Shown here piece by piece: positions 1 through 32,920 of a stretch of DNA of 32,920 nucleotides. Source of the DNA: Hyella patelloides LEGE 07179 (GTDB lineage: Bacteria; Cyanobacteriota; Cyanobacteriia; Cyanobacteriales; Xenococcaceae); contig NZ_LR213818.1 of the NCBI RefSeq assembly GCF_900659865.1, positions 1 through 32,920 on the forward strand, read 5' to 3'. Under the pieces are notes generated by a model that saw only the letters and a list, made by a program, of their open reading frames with translations, did no database searches and was not told the origin of the DNA. A program made the translations under genes and the position numbers. The stretch's first letter is position 1. Every line of letters starts with the position of its first letter.

Positions 1-412
1 TGCCACTAGCGTTCTCGAACTACGGCAGCCAATGGTAGCGAAAGAGACCAAGTATTACCTCTACTAGATGAAATTAAAATTCAAACAGTCAAACCAGGTC
101 GCCCTAGACGAAGATTTTCAGTGTTAGCAGCAGACAAGGGATATGATAGCCATGAGAAGCGAGAGCAATTAAGAAAAAGAGGTATTAGACCACAATTCCC
201 CAAAAGAGTCTACAAATCAAAAAAACATCGTGGAAGACCAATTAAAAGTGATACACCACGTTTTCAGCAAGAAAGATGTTTCTCTTGGTTTCAAAGAAAA
301 TATAGACGTTTAGTGGTTCGTTGGGAACGTCAATCTCTTGTTTTTGATGGTTTTTTGACTTTGGCAACTATTCATATGTGGATTACCAAAATCATATTAG
401 TGGGATAGGTTC
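1..412 (+). mobile_element. IS5-type insertion sequence, 3' end only
   Basis: The window opens inside an insertion sequence whose transposase reads on the plus strand and stops at 408. The interrupted MFS gene on the other strand runs into this sequence and stops at 392, so the element's right end must lie close to 408-415. The bases GGGATAGGTTC at 402-412 look like a terminal inverted repeat end, but the left end is outside the window, so neither the repeat nor the target duplication can be confirmed. Confidence 0.75.
3..408 (+). pseudogene. IS5-family DDE transposase, C-terminal part, probably frameshifted
   Basis: Only the C-terminal part of the transposase is in the window. The frame running to the stop at 406-408 contains the family-typical stretch LAADKGYDS (second catalytic Asp region, about 124-150) and, near the end, RRLVVRWERQ (about 307-336), which carries the catalytic Glu region of IS5-type enzymes. 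This frame is open only from position 10. The residues expected just upstream (PLAF) are read in another frame at 3-14, and RTTAANGSERDQ resumes at 16. That pattern fits one extra base near position 15. I recognise the family from motif memory. Whether the shift is real or a sequencing error cannot be told, and programmed frameshifting is a less likely alternative at this position. Confidence 0.7.
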
Positions 413-28623: not shown

Positions 28624-30456
28624 ATGGATGAGCAACAGTTCTCACTACCAAACACAGACATTCTAATTGTTGATGATAAAGTAGAAAATCTTGATTTTTT
28701 GGCTCAAATGTTGAGAGAACACAATTATAAAGTTCGTTTAGCCACTAATGCCAAAATTGCTTTTAAATCAGCAAAGGTAGCCCCTCCCAATTTGGTGCTG
28801 TTGGATATCAATATGCCAGGGATGAACGGTTATGAGTTGTGTCGATTGCTTAAAAAAGAAGCAAATACTCAAGATATTCCCATTATTTTTTTAAGTGCTT
28901 CAGGGCAAACATTTAACAAAGTAGAAGCCTTCACTGCGGGGGGTGTTGACTATATAACTAAACCATTTGATATCAGTGAAGTTATCATTCGCATTGAAAA
29001 TCAACTTAAACTGAAATTGGCTCAAGCAGAGATAGTCAAGCTCAACTTTAGTTTAGAGCAGAAAATTCAAGAGCGTACTGCCCAATTACAAGCTGAAATC
29101 CAGAAAAGAGAACGCGCTCAAGCAAAACTTCTCAGAATGGCTTTGCACGATTCTCTCACGGACTTACCAAATCGTAGTTGGTTTTTGCAACAGTTAAAGC
29201 AAGAGTTGGATAAAACTCAACAACAGCCAGATTATCAATTTGCTGTTATTTGTTTTGATTGCGACAACTTCAAAGTTATTAATGATTCTCTAGGACATGG
29301 CGTGGGAGATAGTTTACTCAAAGCAATTCCTTCTCGTTTGGAATGCTGTCTGCCTCAAGATAGCTTTATGGCTCGATTAGGAGGAGATGAATTTATTATC
29401 TTATTGCCTCATATTGGTAGTTTAGCCACTGCGATTACTACAACCTATAAAATTCAACAAGAATTTACTGCTCCGTTTTCTGTGGGCAAACGAGAAATCT
29501 GTCTCAATTTTAGTATTGGCATTGTATTAGGAACAGCCGAATACGATCAACCAGAAAAGATCTTAAGAAATGCTGATTTAGCCATGTATCAAGCCAAAGC
29601 TTTAGGCAAAGCACAATATCAGGTATACAATCAACAAATGCATCAACGTGCGGTAGAACGGTTACAGTTAGAGATAGATTTAAGAAACGCCCTCAAAAAT
29701 AACGAATTTACTCTACATTACCAGCCAATTATTTGTCTCAAAACTGGTCACATCATTGGTTTTGAAAGCCTAGTACGCTGGCAACATCCCCAGTTAGGTA
29801 TGATTTCTCCTGGTAAATTTATTCCCGTTGCAGAAGAAACAGGATTGATTATTCCTTTGGGGATTTGGGTGTTACAAGAAGCCTGTAGGCAAATTAAAGT
29901 TTGGCAACAAAAATACGATTCTTTTATTTCTTTGACTGTTAATGTCAATGTGGCAGTACAGCAATTTTCCTATAGTCGCTTGATCCAAGAAATTGACAAA
30001 ATATTAGAAGAAACTCAATTGCCCTCTAGCTGTTTGAAATTAGAAATAACCGAAAGTGCCATCATGGAAAATAGTGATTCTGCTCACGCCATTTTACAAG
30101 AACTGAGAGATAGAAATATCAAGATTTGTATTGATGACTTTGGAACGGGTTATTCATCTTTAAGTTATTTACATCAGTTTCCCGTTGATAATTTAAAAAT
30201 CGATCGCTCCTTTATCAGCAGAATTAAAAGCGTAGACGAACCAAATAAAGTAATTGATGCCATTGTTAATTTGGCACATTATTTAGATATTAGTGTGACC
30301 GCAGAGGGAATCGAAACACAAGAACAGCTAGACTATGCTAGAAACGTGAATTGTGAATACGCGCAGGGATATTTCTTCTTTAAGCCTTTAAATGCAGAAG
30401 CAGTAGAAGCCATGCAGTTACTCAATCAGAAAAAACCCCTATTTTTAAATGTTTAA
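28624..30456 (+). CDS. REC-GGDEF-EAL c-di-GMP turnover protein
   Basis: The 610-residue protein has a receiver domain (about 12-128, phosphoacceptor Asp61 in LLDINMPGMNG), a coiled linker (135-165), a GGDEF domain (about 166-335, RLGGDEF at 251-257) and an EAL domain (about 350-600). The GGDEF active site is intact, but the RxxD inhibitory site is absent (LPQD in place of RxxD). In the EAL domain the signature reads ESL (381-383), keeping the metal-binding Glu; ITES, DDFGTGYSSL, LKIDRSF and AEGIETQEQL are kept. Both activities are plausible, with phosphorylation choosing between them. The partner kinase is not adjacent, although the large hybrid kinase is upstream. It converges on and overlaps the chimeric receptor gene by 4 bases. 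Confidence 0.93.
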   Translation: MDEQQFSLPNTDILIVDDKVENLDFLAQMLREHNYKVRLATNAKIAFKSAKVAPPNLVLLDINMPGMNGYELCRLLKKEANTQDIPIIFLSASGQTFNKVEAFTAGGVDYITKPFDISEVIIRIENQLKLKLAQAEIVKLNFSLEQKIQERTAQLQAEIQKRERAQAKLLRMALHDSLTDLPNRSWFLQQLKQELDKTQQQPDYQFAVICFDCDNFKVINDSLGHGVGDSLLKAIPSRLECCLPQDSFMARLGGDEFIILLPHIGSLATAITTTYKIQQEFTAPFSVGKREICLNFSIGIVLGTAEYDQPEKILRNADLAMYQAKALGKAQYQVYNQQMHQRAVERLQLEIDLRNALKNNEFTLHYQPIICLKTGHIIGFESLVRWQHPQLGMISPGKFIPVAEETGLIIPLGIWVLQEACRQIKVWQQKYDSFISLTVNVNVAVQQFSYSRLIQEIDKILEETQLPSSCLKLEITESAIMENSDSAHAILQELRDRNIKICIDDFGTGYSSLSYLHQFPVDNLKIDRSFISRIKSVDEPNKVIDAIVNLAHYLDISVTAEGIETQEQLDYARNVNCEYAQGYFFFKPLNAEAVEAMQLLNQKKPLFLNV

Positions 30457-32795
30457 TTAAATTTTAGGGAAACTGAGCCGATAACAGTAAAAGGTTCACC
30501 AGCTTGAATTCCTCTAGTTCTATTAATGGGAGTACCTGTGATGTAATTAATATCGAAAATATTTTTGAAGTTTAAAGCTGTCCGCCAATTATCGCGCTGA
30601 TAATAAATCCCAGCATTGGTTAGAAAGTAACTGTCCAATTCAAAGCTGTTATCTAAATCTCCTTGGCGTGAACCAATAAAATTAAAGCCCATACCAAAAC
30701 CTAGTCCTTGTAAATCTCCCCGTTGAATTTCATAATTTGTCCAAAGACTAGCACTGTGTTCGGGAACTCCTGGTAATTTATTCCCCACTGGAATAGTATT
30801 ATCTTCGGTAACTTCGGCATCAATATAGGAATAGGAAGCGGTAATATTTAATCCTGGTAAAATTTTGCCAATAATATCTAGTTCAATACCATTACTGTTT
30901 TGTTCCCCTGTAGCGACAGAAAATAGGGGATTATCGGGGTCTGCCGTAGCAACATTATTTTTAGTAATATCAAAATAAGCCAAAGTTGCTAAGAGTTTAC
31001 CCGACAAAAATTCAGCTTTAGCTCCAATTTCGTATCCTTCTCCTGTTTCTGGTTCGAGTGCCACATCACCTTCTGCCACTTCTGCATTGGGAGTAAATGA
31101 TTGTGAATAACTAGCGTAAAGCGATAAGTTTTGTAGTGGTTTGTAAACTATACCAAGATTAGGACTGAAAGCATCGTCATTTTGTGTAGTTTCAGTATCA
31201 GTGGTGTTGCTCGCGGTTTCTTGTTCTATTGTGTCATACCTAATACCTGCTGATGCGATCAGGCTATCAGTCAAGGAAACTTGGTCTTGGAGATAAATAC
31301 CTAAACTATCTACTCTTATATCGGTGCTTTGGGAAACGGGTAAATCATCTTCTCCTGGCCTAGGAAATGCTCCATATACTGGAGCGAAAATGTTAATTGG
31401 TATTACTTCTGAAAAATCATTTCTTGATGTTTGCTCCGTTTGATTACGGGCTAGGTCGATTCCCAACAAAAGCTTATGTTCAATTGCTCCTGTATTAAAC
31501 TTCCCGATAGCATTTGTCTGAAGAGAGTAATTTTCAACACCTACATCTTGAATAGCAAAGCTTCTATCAAGGTCACCTGTGGACTCATCTAGTGTGCCGA
31601 TAAAGGGAAAATTGATGGCAGTCTCTAAATGATCGTCATTTTTATCGTATCTAAATGCGTTTCTTAATGTCCAATTGTCACTAAAGCGATGTTCTAAATT
31701 GTAGCCAACATTAAGAGACTCTTTTTCAATGAAATCATCTGGCTCATTAATAACACGATCGCGGGGAATGTCTGCTATTTCATCGCCTAAAGCAACTAAA
31801 CCCGTATCAAAAGGAATGTATCCTATTGCTTCGGCAATAACGCCACTCAATGAACTAGCAATCAAACTGCCAAATGCCTTAATTGAGACTTGAAGGGTAT
31901 AATCTGTACCAGCAGTATTGAGTTGGCTCTTATCCATCATTACGGTGAATTGAGCAGTATGAGTCATCCCAATAGCCATTTGGACAACAATACAAATTAG
32001 ACAGATTAAGGCAAAGCTACTAATTCCCACTGCTGGAATTAGAAACAAGGCGATCGCCAAAGCCAGAAAAATACCAAAAATAATCAGCGATCGCTTTCTT
32101 CCCAAAGGAGTAATCAGAATTCCTGCAATTGGGGAGGCTACCATAGCAGAACTGGAGCCAATAATGCCGATTAAAAGACCGATATCTGAGAGAGAAAATC
32201 CTAAGTCTACCAGCAAGGGTCTAAACATGGTAAACGCCATTCTCGCACCCATCGTGTAGGATATCGTAGTTAACAGCCATTGACCCATTCCTCGCCGACG
32301 ACAGAAGTTAATCAGACCCATAAAATCAGGCTTTTTAGCAAAAGAGGGAGTTTTTACTTGTTCTTGGTGTAGCCAAATGGGAATTGAAGCTAATAAAACT
32401 AAAACGGCTAAAGTAAGCAGACTAGCTTGCCATCCTAAGCGATTGAGCAACAATAACATTCCGCCACCGCCTAGAATTGCGCCTAAATAGTTACCCGCAC
32501 TTTGTACCCCATTACCCAAACCTCGTTCTTCAGGAGAAAGTAAACTAATTGCTAGAGCATCTGTGGCAATATCCTGAGTAGCTGCTAAAAAAGAAACTAA
32601 AAAGAGGCTAAATACGATCGCAGCTATATTTTGCTCAATATCTAAAAAAGCACACAAAACTAAAGTAAGAGCAAGCAAACTCTGACAAACCAAAATCCAG
32701 GGACGATAATGCTCTTTGCTATTAAAACTATAGCGATCTACTAACGGCGACCAAATAAATTTAAGCGTCCAGGGAATTGTAATCAGCGACAGCAA
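30453..32795 (-). CDS. Chimera: MFS siderophore transporter (RhtX/FptX-like) fused to a TonB-dependent receptor barrel
   Basis: One 780-codon frame joins two unrelated proteins. Residues 1-326 are an MFS permease of the RhtX/FptX siderophore-import type: TIPWTLKFIWSPLVDRY, ATQDIATDALAI and GNGVQSAGNYLGAILGGGG. Residues about 327-780 are the outer-membrane barrel of a TonB-dependent siderophore receptor: VINEPDDF, LEHRFSDNWTLRNAFRYD, LYASYSQSFTPN and INRTRGIQAGEP. The MFS part lacks about 45 N-terminal residues and its last helices; the receptor part lacks its signal peptide, TonB box and plug domain. The junction is near 31815-31820 (IGY/IPFDTG). The start is a TTG, and upstream the frame meets a stop in unrelated DNA. 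A hydrophobic inner-membrane half joined to a signal-less barrel cannot sort correctly, so this is probably a pseudogene from a deletion, or an assembly join. Confidence 0.85.
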   Translation of the reverse strand: MLSLITIPWTLKFIWSPLVDRYSFNSKEHYRPWILVCQSLLALTLVLCAFLDIEQNIAAIVFSLFLVSFLAATQDIATDALAISLLSPEERGLGNGVQSAGNYLGAILGGGGMLLLLNRLGWQASLLTLAVLVLLASIPIWLHQEQVKTPSFAKKPDFMGLINFCRRRGMGQWLLTTISYTMGARMAFTMFRPLLVDLGFSLSDIGLLIGIIGSSSAMVASPIAGILITPLGRKRSLIIFGIFLALAIALFLIPAVGISSFALICLICIVVQMAIGMTHTAQFTVMMDKSQLNTAGTDYTLQVSIKAFGSLIASSLSGVIAEAIGYIPFDTGLVALGDEIADIPRDRVINEPDDFIEKESLNVGYNLEHRFSDNWTLRNAFRYDKNDDHLETAINFPFIGTLDESTGDLDRSFAIQDVGVENYSLQTNAIGKFNTGAIEHKLLLGIDLARNQTEQTSRNDFSEVIPINIFAPVYGAFPRPGEDDLPVSQSTDIRVDSLGIYLQDQVSLTDSLIASAGIRYDTIEQETASNTTDTETTQNDDAFSPNLGIVYKPLQNLSLYASYSQSFTPNAEVAEGDVALEPETGEGYEIGAKAEFLSGKLLATLAYFDITKNNVATADPDNPLFSVATGEQNSNGIELDIIGKILPGLNITASYSYIDAEVTEDNTIPVGNKLPGVPEHSASLWTNYEIQRGDLQGLGFGMGFNFIGSRQGDLDNSFELDSYFLTNAGIYYQRDNWRTALNFKNIFDINYITGTPINRTRGIQAGEPFTVIGSVSLKFN

Positions 32796-32920
32796 GTAAA
32801 GTCAGTGAAAGGGTCGCCCCTTCCACTGCTCTCCAAAACGTAGCGTGATAGTTTCCTATCACTACGCTCCTCAGTAATACGGCTGCTGTCATCAGTACGC
32901 CTTTAAATCATTGTTGTAAT
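32796..32920. other. Unrelated sequence at the broken MFS 5' end, with a hairpin
   Basis: The expected N-terminal codons of the MFS protein are absent here. The sequence includes GTGATAG (32845-32851)/CTATCAC (32856-32862) with a four-base loop, and a repeated GTAGCGTGATAG/CTATCACTACGC theme. It is likely the edge of another mobile or repeat element that runs beyond the window. No coding content is recognised. Confidence 0.45.

Follow-up and report, generated by a model that had tools for sequence, protein, structure and literature searches.

We analysed the whole of contig NZ_LR213818.1 from the cyanobacterium Hyella patelloides LEGE 07179, a stretch of 32,920 bases that we call the window. 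It is contig C53 of a genome assembly of 8.06 Mb in 675 contigs. On its minus strand, part of a major facilitator superfamily (MFS) permease runs in frame into part of a TonB-dependent siderophore receptor barrel. The two source proteins belong to different membranes, and neither is complete. We consider it very likely that the frame is a recent chimeric pseudogene, which resulted from a rearrangement of a permease and a receptor gene and which a group II intron interrupts as well. The sequence feature is real but ordinary in kind: it appears to be a one-off gene wreck, not a new type of protein. Should it be expressed after all, the resulting protein would suit neither of the two membranes. 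Below, contigs of this assembly are given as C and a number, other genomes as G and a number, and loci matched by the fused protein as L and a number.

The minus-strand frame is open from position 32801 to 30453 (782 codons from stop to stop). Taking a TTG as the start, the resulting open reading frame (ORF) at 30453-32795 encodes 780 amino acids with no internal stop; the remaining two minus-strand frames over the same region contain 58 and 80 stops. Pfam MFS_1 (PF07690) matches residues 10-313 of the ORF with 115.5 bits, above its gathering cut-off of 33.4. The Pfam model TonB_dep_Rec_b-barrel (PF00593) matches residues 344-746 (251.1 bits; cut-off 27), and the NCBIfam siderophore receptor model TIGR01783 (TonB-siderophor) matches residues 332-779 (305.9 bits, above the curated cut-off of 223.5). 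In a tblastn search with the fused protein, 25 of the 26 MFS matches that end within residues 300-345 do so at 326-329, and 78 of the 94 receptor matches that start within residues 310-345 do so at 327-330. These counts are not independent, given that many of the 186 loci searched overlap. At the DNA level, permease and receptor relatives have few bases in common at the join, and the join contains no run of N. An earlier note on this DNA, made from the sequence alone, had reported, without naming the strand, a permease that passes into a receptor barrel in frame at codons 326-329, and the profile matches and sharp tblastn edges confirm this observation. The account we prefer would be a non-homologous rearrangement at about position 31,815 that joined permease codon 327 to a codon inside the receptor barrel, with the reading frame kept by chance (one in three). 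The features are collected in Table 1.

Table 1. Features of the fused frame and the adjoining intron in the window
Feature	Position in window	Strand	Evidence
MFS permease part, exon 2 (ORF residues 1-327)	31815..32795	-	MFS_1, TIGR02718, alignment to ten relatives
TonB-dependent siderophore receptor barrel, truncated (residues 328-780)	30456..31814	-	PF00593, TIGR01783, AlphaFold2, Foldseek
Join of permease and receptor parts (residues 326-329)	31809..31820	-	tblastn match edges; DNA comparison
TAA stop codon of fused frame	30453..30455	-	sequence
Group II intron 3′ end (domains 5 and 6)	32796..32920	-	Rfam RF00029; remainder beyond contig end

The receptor half lacks everything that precedes the body of the barrel. 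The PF00593 match covers profile positions 45-436 of 436, and the TIGR01783 match covers 200-649 of 649. Because the match begins inside the barrel, the signal peptide, TonB box and first strands are judged from the sequence to be absent. At E-values up to 1, nothing in the fused ORF matches the plug domain (PF07715), and no AMIN domain was matched there either. PF07715 is present in the receptor frames tested on C67, C86 (both frames), C366, C597 and C596, and the C67 and C86 receptors have an AMIN domain, a plug and a barrel that begins at profile position 2. The suggestion in the earlier note that the receptor has lost its signal peptide, TonB box and plug is thus borne out. Receptors of this class have barrels with 22 strands, of which about four appear to have been lost here, judging by eye from the sequence of the C67 receptor.

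We modelled the fused protein with AlphaFold2, using 31 sequences (mean predicted local distance difference test score, pLDDT, 73.6; predicted template modelling score, pTM, 0.57). From residue 355 on, the model has 17 strands of at least 8 residues and three short ones, mostly with pLDDT above 90 per block. The MFS half is below 50 at residues 144-200 and 202-328. The best Foldseek match is FhuA (1qjq; E-value 9.5e-32, TM score 0.48 by query). Like receptors of the FhuA/FoxA type, residues 332-779 score above the TIGR01783 cut-off and find FhuA as their top structural match; unlike them, this half lacks a plug and an AMIN domain and, by its sequence, also the signal peptide, the TonB box and the initial strands. 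The receptor source would be FhuA-like, and it would not be the known partner of the permease.

The permease half is truncated at both ends. MFS permeases have twelve helices. An alignment with ten relatives shows that the N-terminal region (about 45 codons) and the final hydrophobic stretch are missing, with the barrel in place of the latter, so that the first and last helices are both absent. The loss of the permease 3′ end had been proposed in the earlier note, and it is evident from this alignment. The same note had assigned the permease to the RhtX/FptX type. That it is an MFS permease is well founded, but its subfamily could not be settled. The RhtX/FptX-type profile TIGR02718 gives 156.8 bits over profile positions 40-370 of 390, below its curated cut-off of 356.15, and the AmpG-family profile TIGR00901 scores about the same, also below its cut-off. 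This is equally true of the two intact relatives that were tested; for example, the intact C67 permease scores 215.2 bits with TIGR02718 and 214.3 with TIGR00901. The source may thus be described as an RhtX/AmpG-like MFS permease. The permease half can be aligned over its length with the ten relatives, and differs from them in the missing first exon and last helix. Within the same genome, the permease on C67 is 66% identical to residues 2-329. The closest relative is the permease on G003:C235, from a genome of the same family, which is 76% identical over 288 codons.

Translation does not begin at the TTG at 32795, which is instead the first codon beyond the 3′ edge of an intron of group II. 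Rfam model RF00029 matches 32796-32871 on the minus strand with 50.0 bits (cut-off 40), and the end of the match directly abuts the TTG, which therefore is a false start. The contig terminates in 125 bases of the 3′ end of this intron. This contig end recurs at the ends of C247 and C607 (128 bases) and of C147 (127 bases), each with the same RF00029 match, and a stretch on C143 is 91% identical to it (RF00029, 44.8 bits). Past the intron end, C247 and C607 enter TnpB-like frames and C147 a repeat-rich coding frame, as judged by eye. The copy next to the permease thus shares its domain 5/6 match with group II introns in general and has further copies elsewhere in the genome, but is represented on its own contig by the 3′ end only; its 5′ end, ribozyme core and intron-encoded protein would lie past the end of the contig. 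According to one report, Cyanobacteriota include the species with the largest numbers of group II introns, and some species have more than 100 (PMC8919778).

The G003 permease has 45 residues ahead of the position that aligns with the TTG. Given these residues and the intron edge, the ORF is the second exon of a gene that the intron interrupts. The insertion site would lie in the permease part, between the equivalents of codons 45 and 46. When we searched for exon 1 in the same assembly with an N-terminal permease query (E-values up to 1), only the paralogues on C67, C12 and C596 were found. The earlier note had overlooked both the intron that supplies the TTG and the absent first exon; the coordinates, the length of 780 amino acids and the open frame stand, but the 5′ end of the ORF is not the beginning of a gene. 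A striking fusion across two membranes with a plausible start can be accounted for by a rearrangement together with an intron edge that mimics a TTG start, which calls for caution with such frames.

We looked for the join in other genomes with an 85-residue peptide that spans it. Matches were obtained in 40 of 386 genomes drawn from the phylum and in 18 of 27 from the family, with the genome of H. patelloides included in both sets; in a few genomes of the phylum set, 14 of 16-18 candidates were scored. Among the candidates scored in these genomes, the window alone matches the peptide from end to end. The other matches are one-sided and reach no more than about ten residues past the join, except those on G291:C171 (query positions 17-85) and G302:C36 (19-85), which are both only 38% identical and lie in frames of 891 and 834 codons. 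A scan of genome contigs with the fused protein gave 22 loci (14 labelled as cyanobacteria), and none has the fused architecture, as judged by the residues matched in a scan that may omit records close to the query genome. Among the 186 tblastn loci, 12 of 173 matches cover residues 310-345, and six of these are loci of the window itself. In the genome of the same genus that was searched (G001), the only match is a single weak one (E-value 5.2e-4). The earlier note had held that the same architecture in homologues, together with a signal peptide, would indicate a genuine new type of protein; the architecture is absent from the genomes searched. A literature search, within its limits, found no paper on a cyanobacterial pseudogene that fuses a TonB-dependent receptor with an MFS protein.

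Several apparent cases of the fusion were rejected. L148, from a Prochloraceae metagenome-assembled genome, was listed as matching residues 1-753, but consists of two separate ORFs, first a receptor and then a permease. The six join-covering matches outside the window (L136; L083, L011 and L166, which are one place on C163; L061 and L068, which are one place in G015) are receptor or permease genes whose alignments run some 20-36 residues past the join.

Could the join be an assembly or sequencing artefact, in which a misjoin or a chimeric read brought permease and receptor together? The assembly is a draft in many contigs with numerous receptor paralogues, and the join is unique among the genomes searched, both of which would fit such an error. 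However, the contig ends suggest otherwise. One permease gene is divided between C596 (its end, L073) and C354 (its start, L074); these contigs overlap by exactly 127 bases inside the gene, and yield an open permease frame of 409 codons when they are joined. The first 127 bases of C143, and no more, recur inside C101, and the end bases that C53 has in common with other contigs number 127 (C147) or 128 (C247 and C607). These overlaps would be expected as remains of a de Bruijn assembly graph with k = 127, which argues against blind misjoining. A plain misjoin is unlikely, because permease and receptor relatives have no common stretch of nearly 127 bases at the join; without one, an artefact would require chimeric reads, and there is no run of N to mark a gap. 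We therefore regard an artefact as improbable, and the join presumably arose in the cell rather than from a chimeric read.

Since an open frame of this length is unlikely in an old pseudogene, given how many stops the other frames contain (58 and 80), either the joining is of recent date or the gene was still maintained until a short time ago. A recent joining event seems probable. The earlier note had offered a recent event or an assembly join as its explanation, and of these the former fares better, while the 127-base overlaps weaken the latter. A comparison of substitution rates points weakly to a dead gene. With C67 as outgroup, 29 amino acid replacements in the permease half are specific to the window and 13 to G003 (chi-square 6.1), and the window differs at 6 of the 69 columns that are invariant in seven relatives.

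A number of observations weigh against a decayed gene. The ratio of nonsynonymous to synonymous substitution rates (dN/dS) in the permease half is 0.21 relative to G003 (dN 0.148, dS 0.717) and 0.22 relative to C67 (0.242/1.104); such low values also fit a gene that is in use or was so until lately, and the frame has so far acquired neither a stop nor a frameshift. With six other outgroups (C12, C596/C354, L148, G006, G005 and G015), the excess of replacements in the window over G003 has the same sign, but the chi-square is only 0.12 to 4.17. Moreover, the G003 copy is itself frameshifted, so it is not a clean control for this test. Compared with C67, the window has no significant excess with any of the seven outgroups, and when G003 is the outgroup, the replacements in C67 outnumber those in the window by 37 to 29. 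In a leave-one-out version of the column count (70-80 columns), the relatives have 1-11 changes and the window 6-14. On the receptor side, the branch length (0.37) is unremarkable. Finally, all2620, an incomplete receptor gene of Anabaena, is transcribed, according to a published study (PMC2771747).

The open frame and the low dN/dS of the permease half could alternatively mean that the locus encodes a functional new protein. The intron would then be spliced, and the permease helices would anchor the partial barrel in the inner membrane, where it would face the periplasm. The loss of one of the twelve helices would, by the usual topology, indeed place the C-terminal part in the periplasm. However, the protein lacks the last helix, the plug and, as far as this contig extends, the first helix, and by its sequence it has neither the signal peptide nor the TonB box nor the initial strands. 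No relative with the join occurs in the genomes searched, and the predicted structure is poor over much of the MFS half and good in the barrel. We consider such a protein very unlikely. The more specific version, in which the fused gene is expressed and the intron splices, either in cis or with exon 1 located elsewhere, to give an eleven-helix permease that carries a plugless partial barrel on the periplasmic face of the inner membrane, is less likely still; to our knowledge, no permease-anchored plugless barrel has been described. From what is known of receptor anatomy, a barrel that has lost its signal peptide, TonB box, plug and initial strands and is located behind inner-membrane helices would not be expected to work, so the product of the chimeric pseudogene is very probably non-functional.

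The earlier note had explained the join by a deletion between a permease and a receptor gene that are usually neighbours. This route, which would lead to the same pseudogene, requires the permease to be upstream. We did not take a systematic census, but in seven of the eight adjacent pairs that we saw, the receptor comes first: C67, C12, C596/C354, L148, G006:C224, G015:C112 and G015:C18, where the order in the last three was taken from match coordinates alone. The only pair with the permease first is on G003:C235, and its permease is also the closest relative of the window permease. This permease (L075, 1780-2922) is frameshifted and its 3′ end is cut. The adjoining receptor seems to continue on G003:C127 (start of L177), although these contigs do not overlap and were linked by reading. 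This receptor also appears to be split by an insertion.

A receptor tree, based on residues 502-779 only and 29 rows, groups the G003:C127 receptor part with the C67 receptor (100/100). The window barrel branches apart from them, and the forks that would define its sister are not settled. The two halves thus do not derive from any known neighbouring pair. Given the order of most pairs and a barrel that is not of the C67 type, a deletion between the usual neighbours is not well supported. A deletion within some other permease-receptor pair is possible, but the deletion route as a whole is rather unlikely. We favour a non-homologous rearrangement between a permease and another receptor paralogue.

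A reciprocal product, which would carry the lost N-terminal part of the receptor, was sought in the same genome using the plug-to-barrel region of the C67 receptor as query. The 17 places found include that of the window itself. Two candidates were considered, and neither is convincing. The receptor frame on C597 ends near the position of the join, but by eye it resembles those of C137 and C192 rather than the group of the window barrel. The frame at C596:87-1283 appears to fit the broad type, with 63% identity to C67 across 146 positions of the query, but it ends before the join position is reached.

The genome contains many other receptor frames, and broken ones are widespread among them, in keeping with a dead chimeric gene. 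Long ones, of 855-884 codons, are present on C67, C86, C192, C12, C596, C290 and C180. Shorter frames occur on C163 (769 codons, with a TAG inside the match), C366 (700), C86 (669), C137 (640), C422 (549), C163 (532), C597 (463), C596 (398), C160 (196), C283 (102) and C252 (50), and some of these are cut by contig ends. Two of them, those of 463 amino acids on C597 and 398 on C596, match the plug but not the barrel, while those of 549 on C422 and 532 on C163 match the barrel but not the plug. These frames show that the siderophore-receptor repertoire of this cyanobacterium is being broken up. Split or incomplete receptor genes in cyanobacteria are already in print: one paper describes the incomplete TonB-dependent transporter genes all2620, alr2179, all2578 and alr4028 of Anabaena sp. 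PCC 7120 (PMC2771747). Those genes keep the plug and have an incomplete barrel, whereas the window frame has lost the plug and has its barrel behind a permease.

On C252 of the same genome (G000:C252, L175/L182), a receptor barrel at about positions 1-138 shares its first 127 bases with the C366 receptor. Its junction with unrelated DNA lies some 15 codons upstream of the position that corresponds to the window join, and a GCGATCGC site is located at the break.

Near the opposite end of the window, at 392-1006 on the minus strand, lies a 204-amino-acid fragment of another MFS transporter (TIGR00900, 134.3 bits over about half of the profile). It is followed by transposase-like sequence at 1-391, as identified by eye. 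Frames that resemble this fragment, also by eye, adjoin receptor genes in G003, G005 and G016. Next to the fused frame, and convergent with it, is a gene for a GGDEF/EAL-type response regulator (28624-30456, plus strand; named by eye). The two frames overlap by 4 bases (30453-30456) where their stop codons lie.

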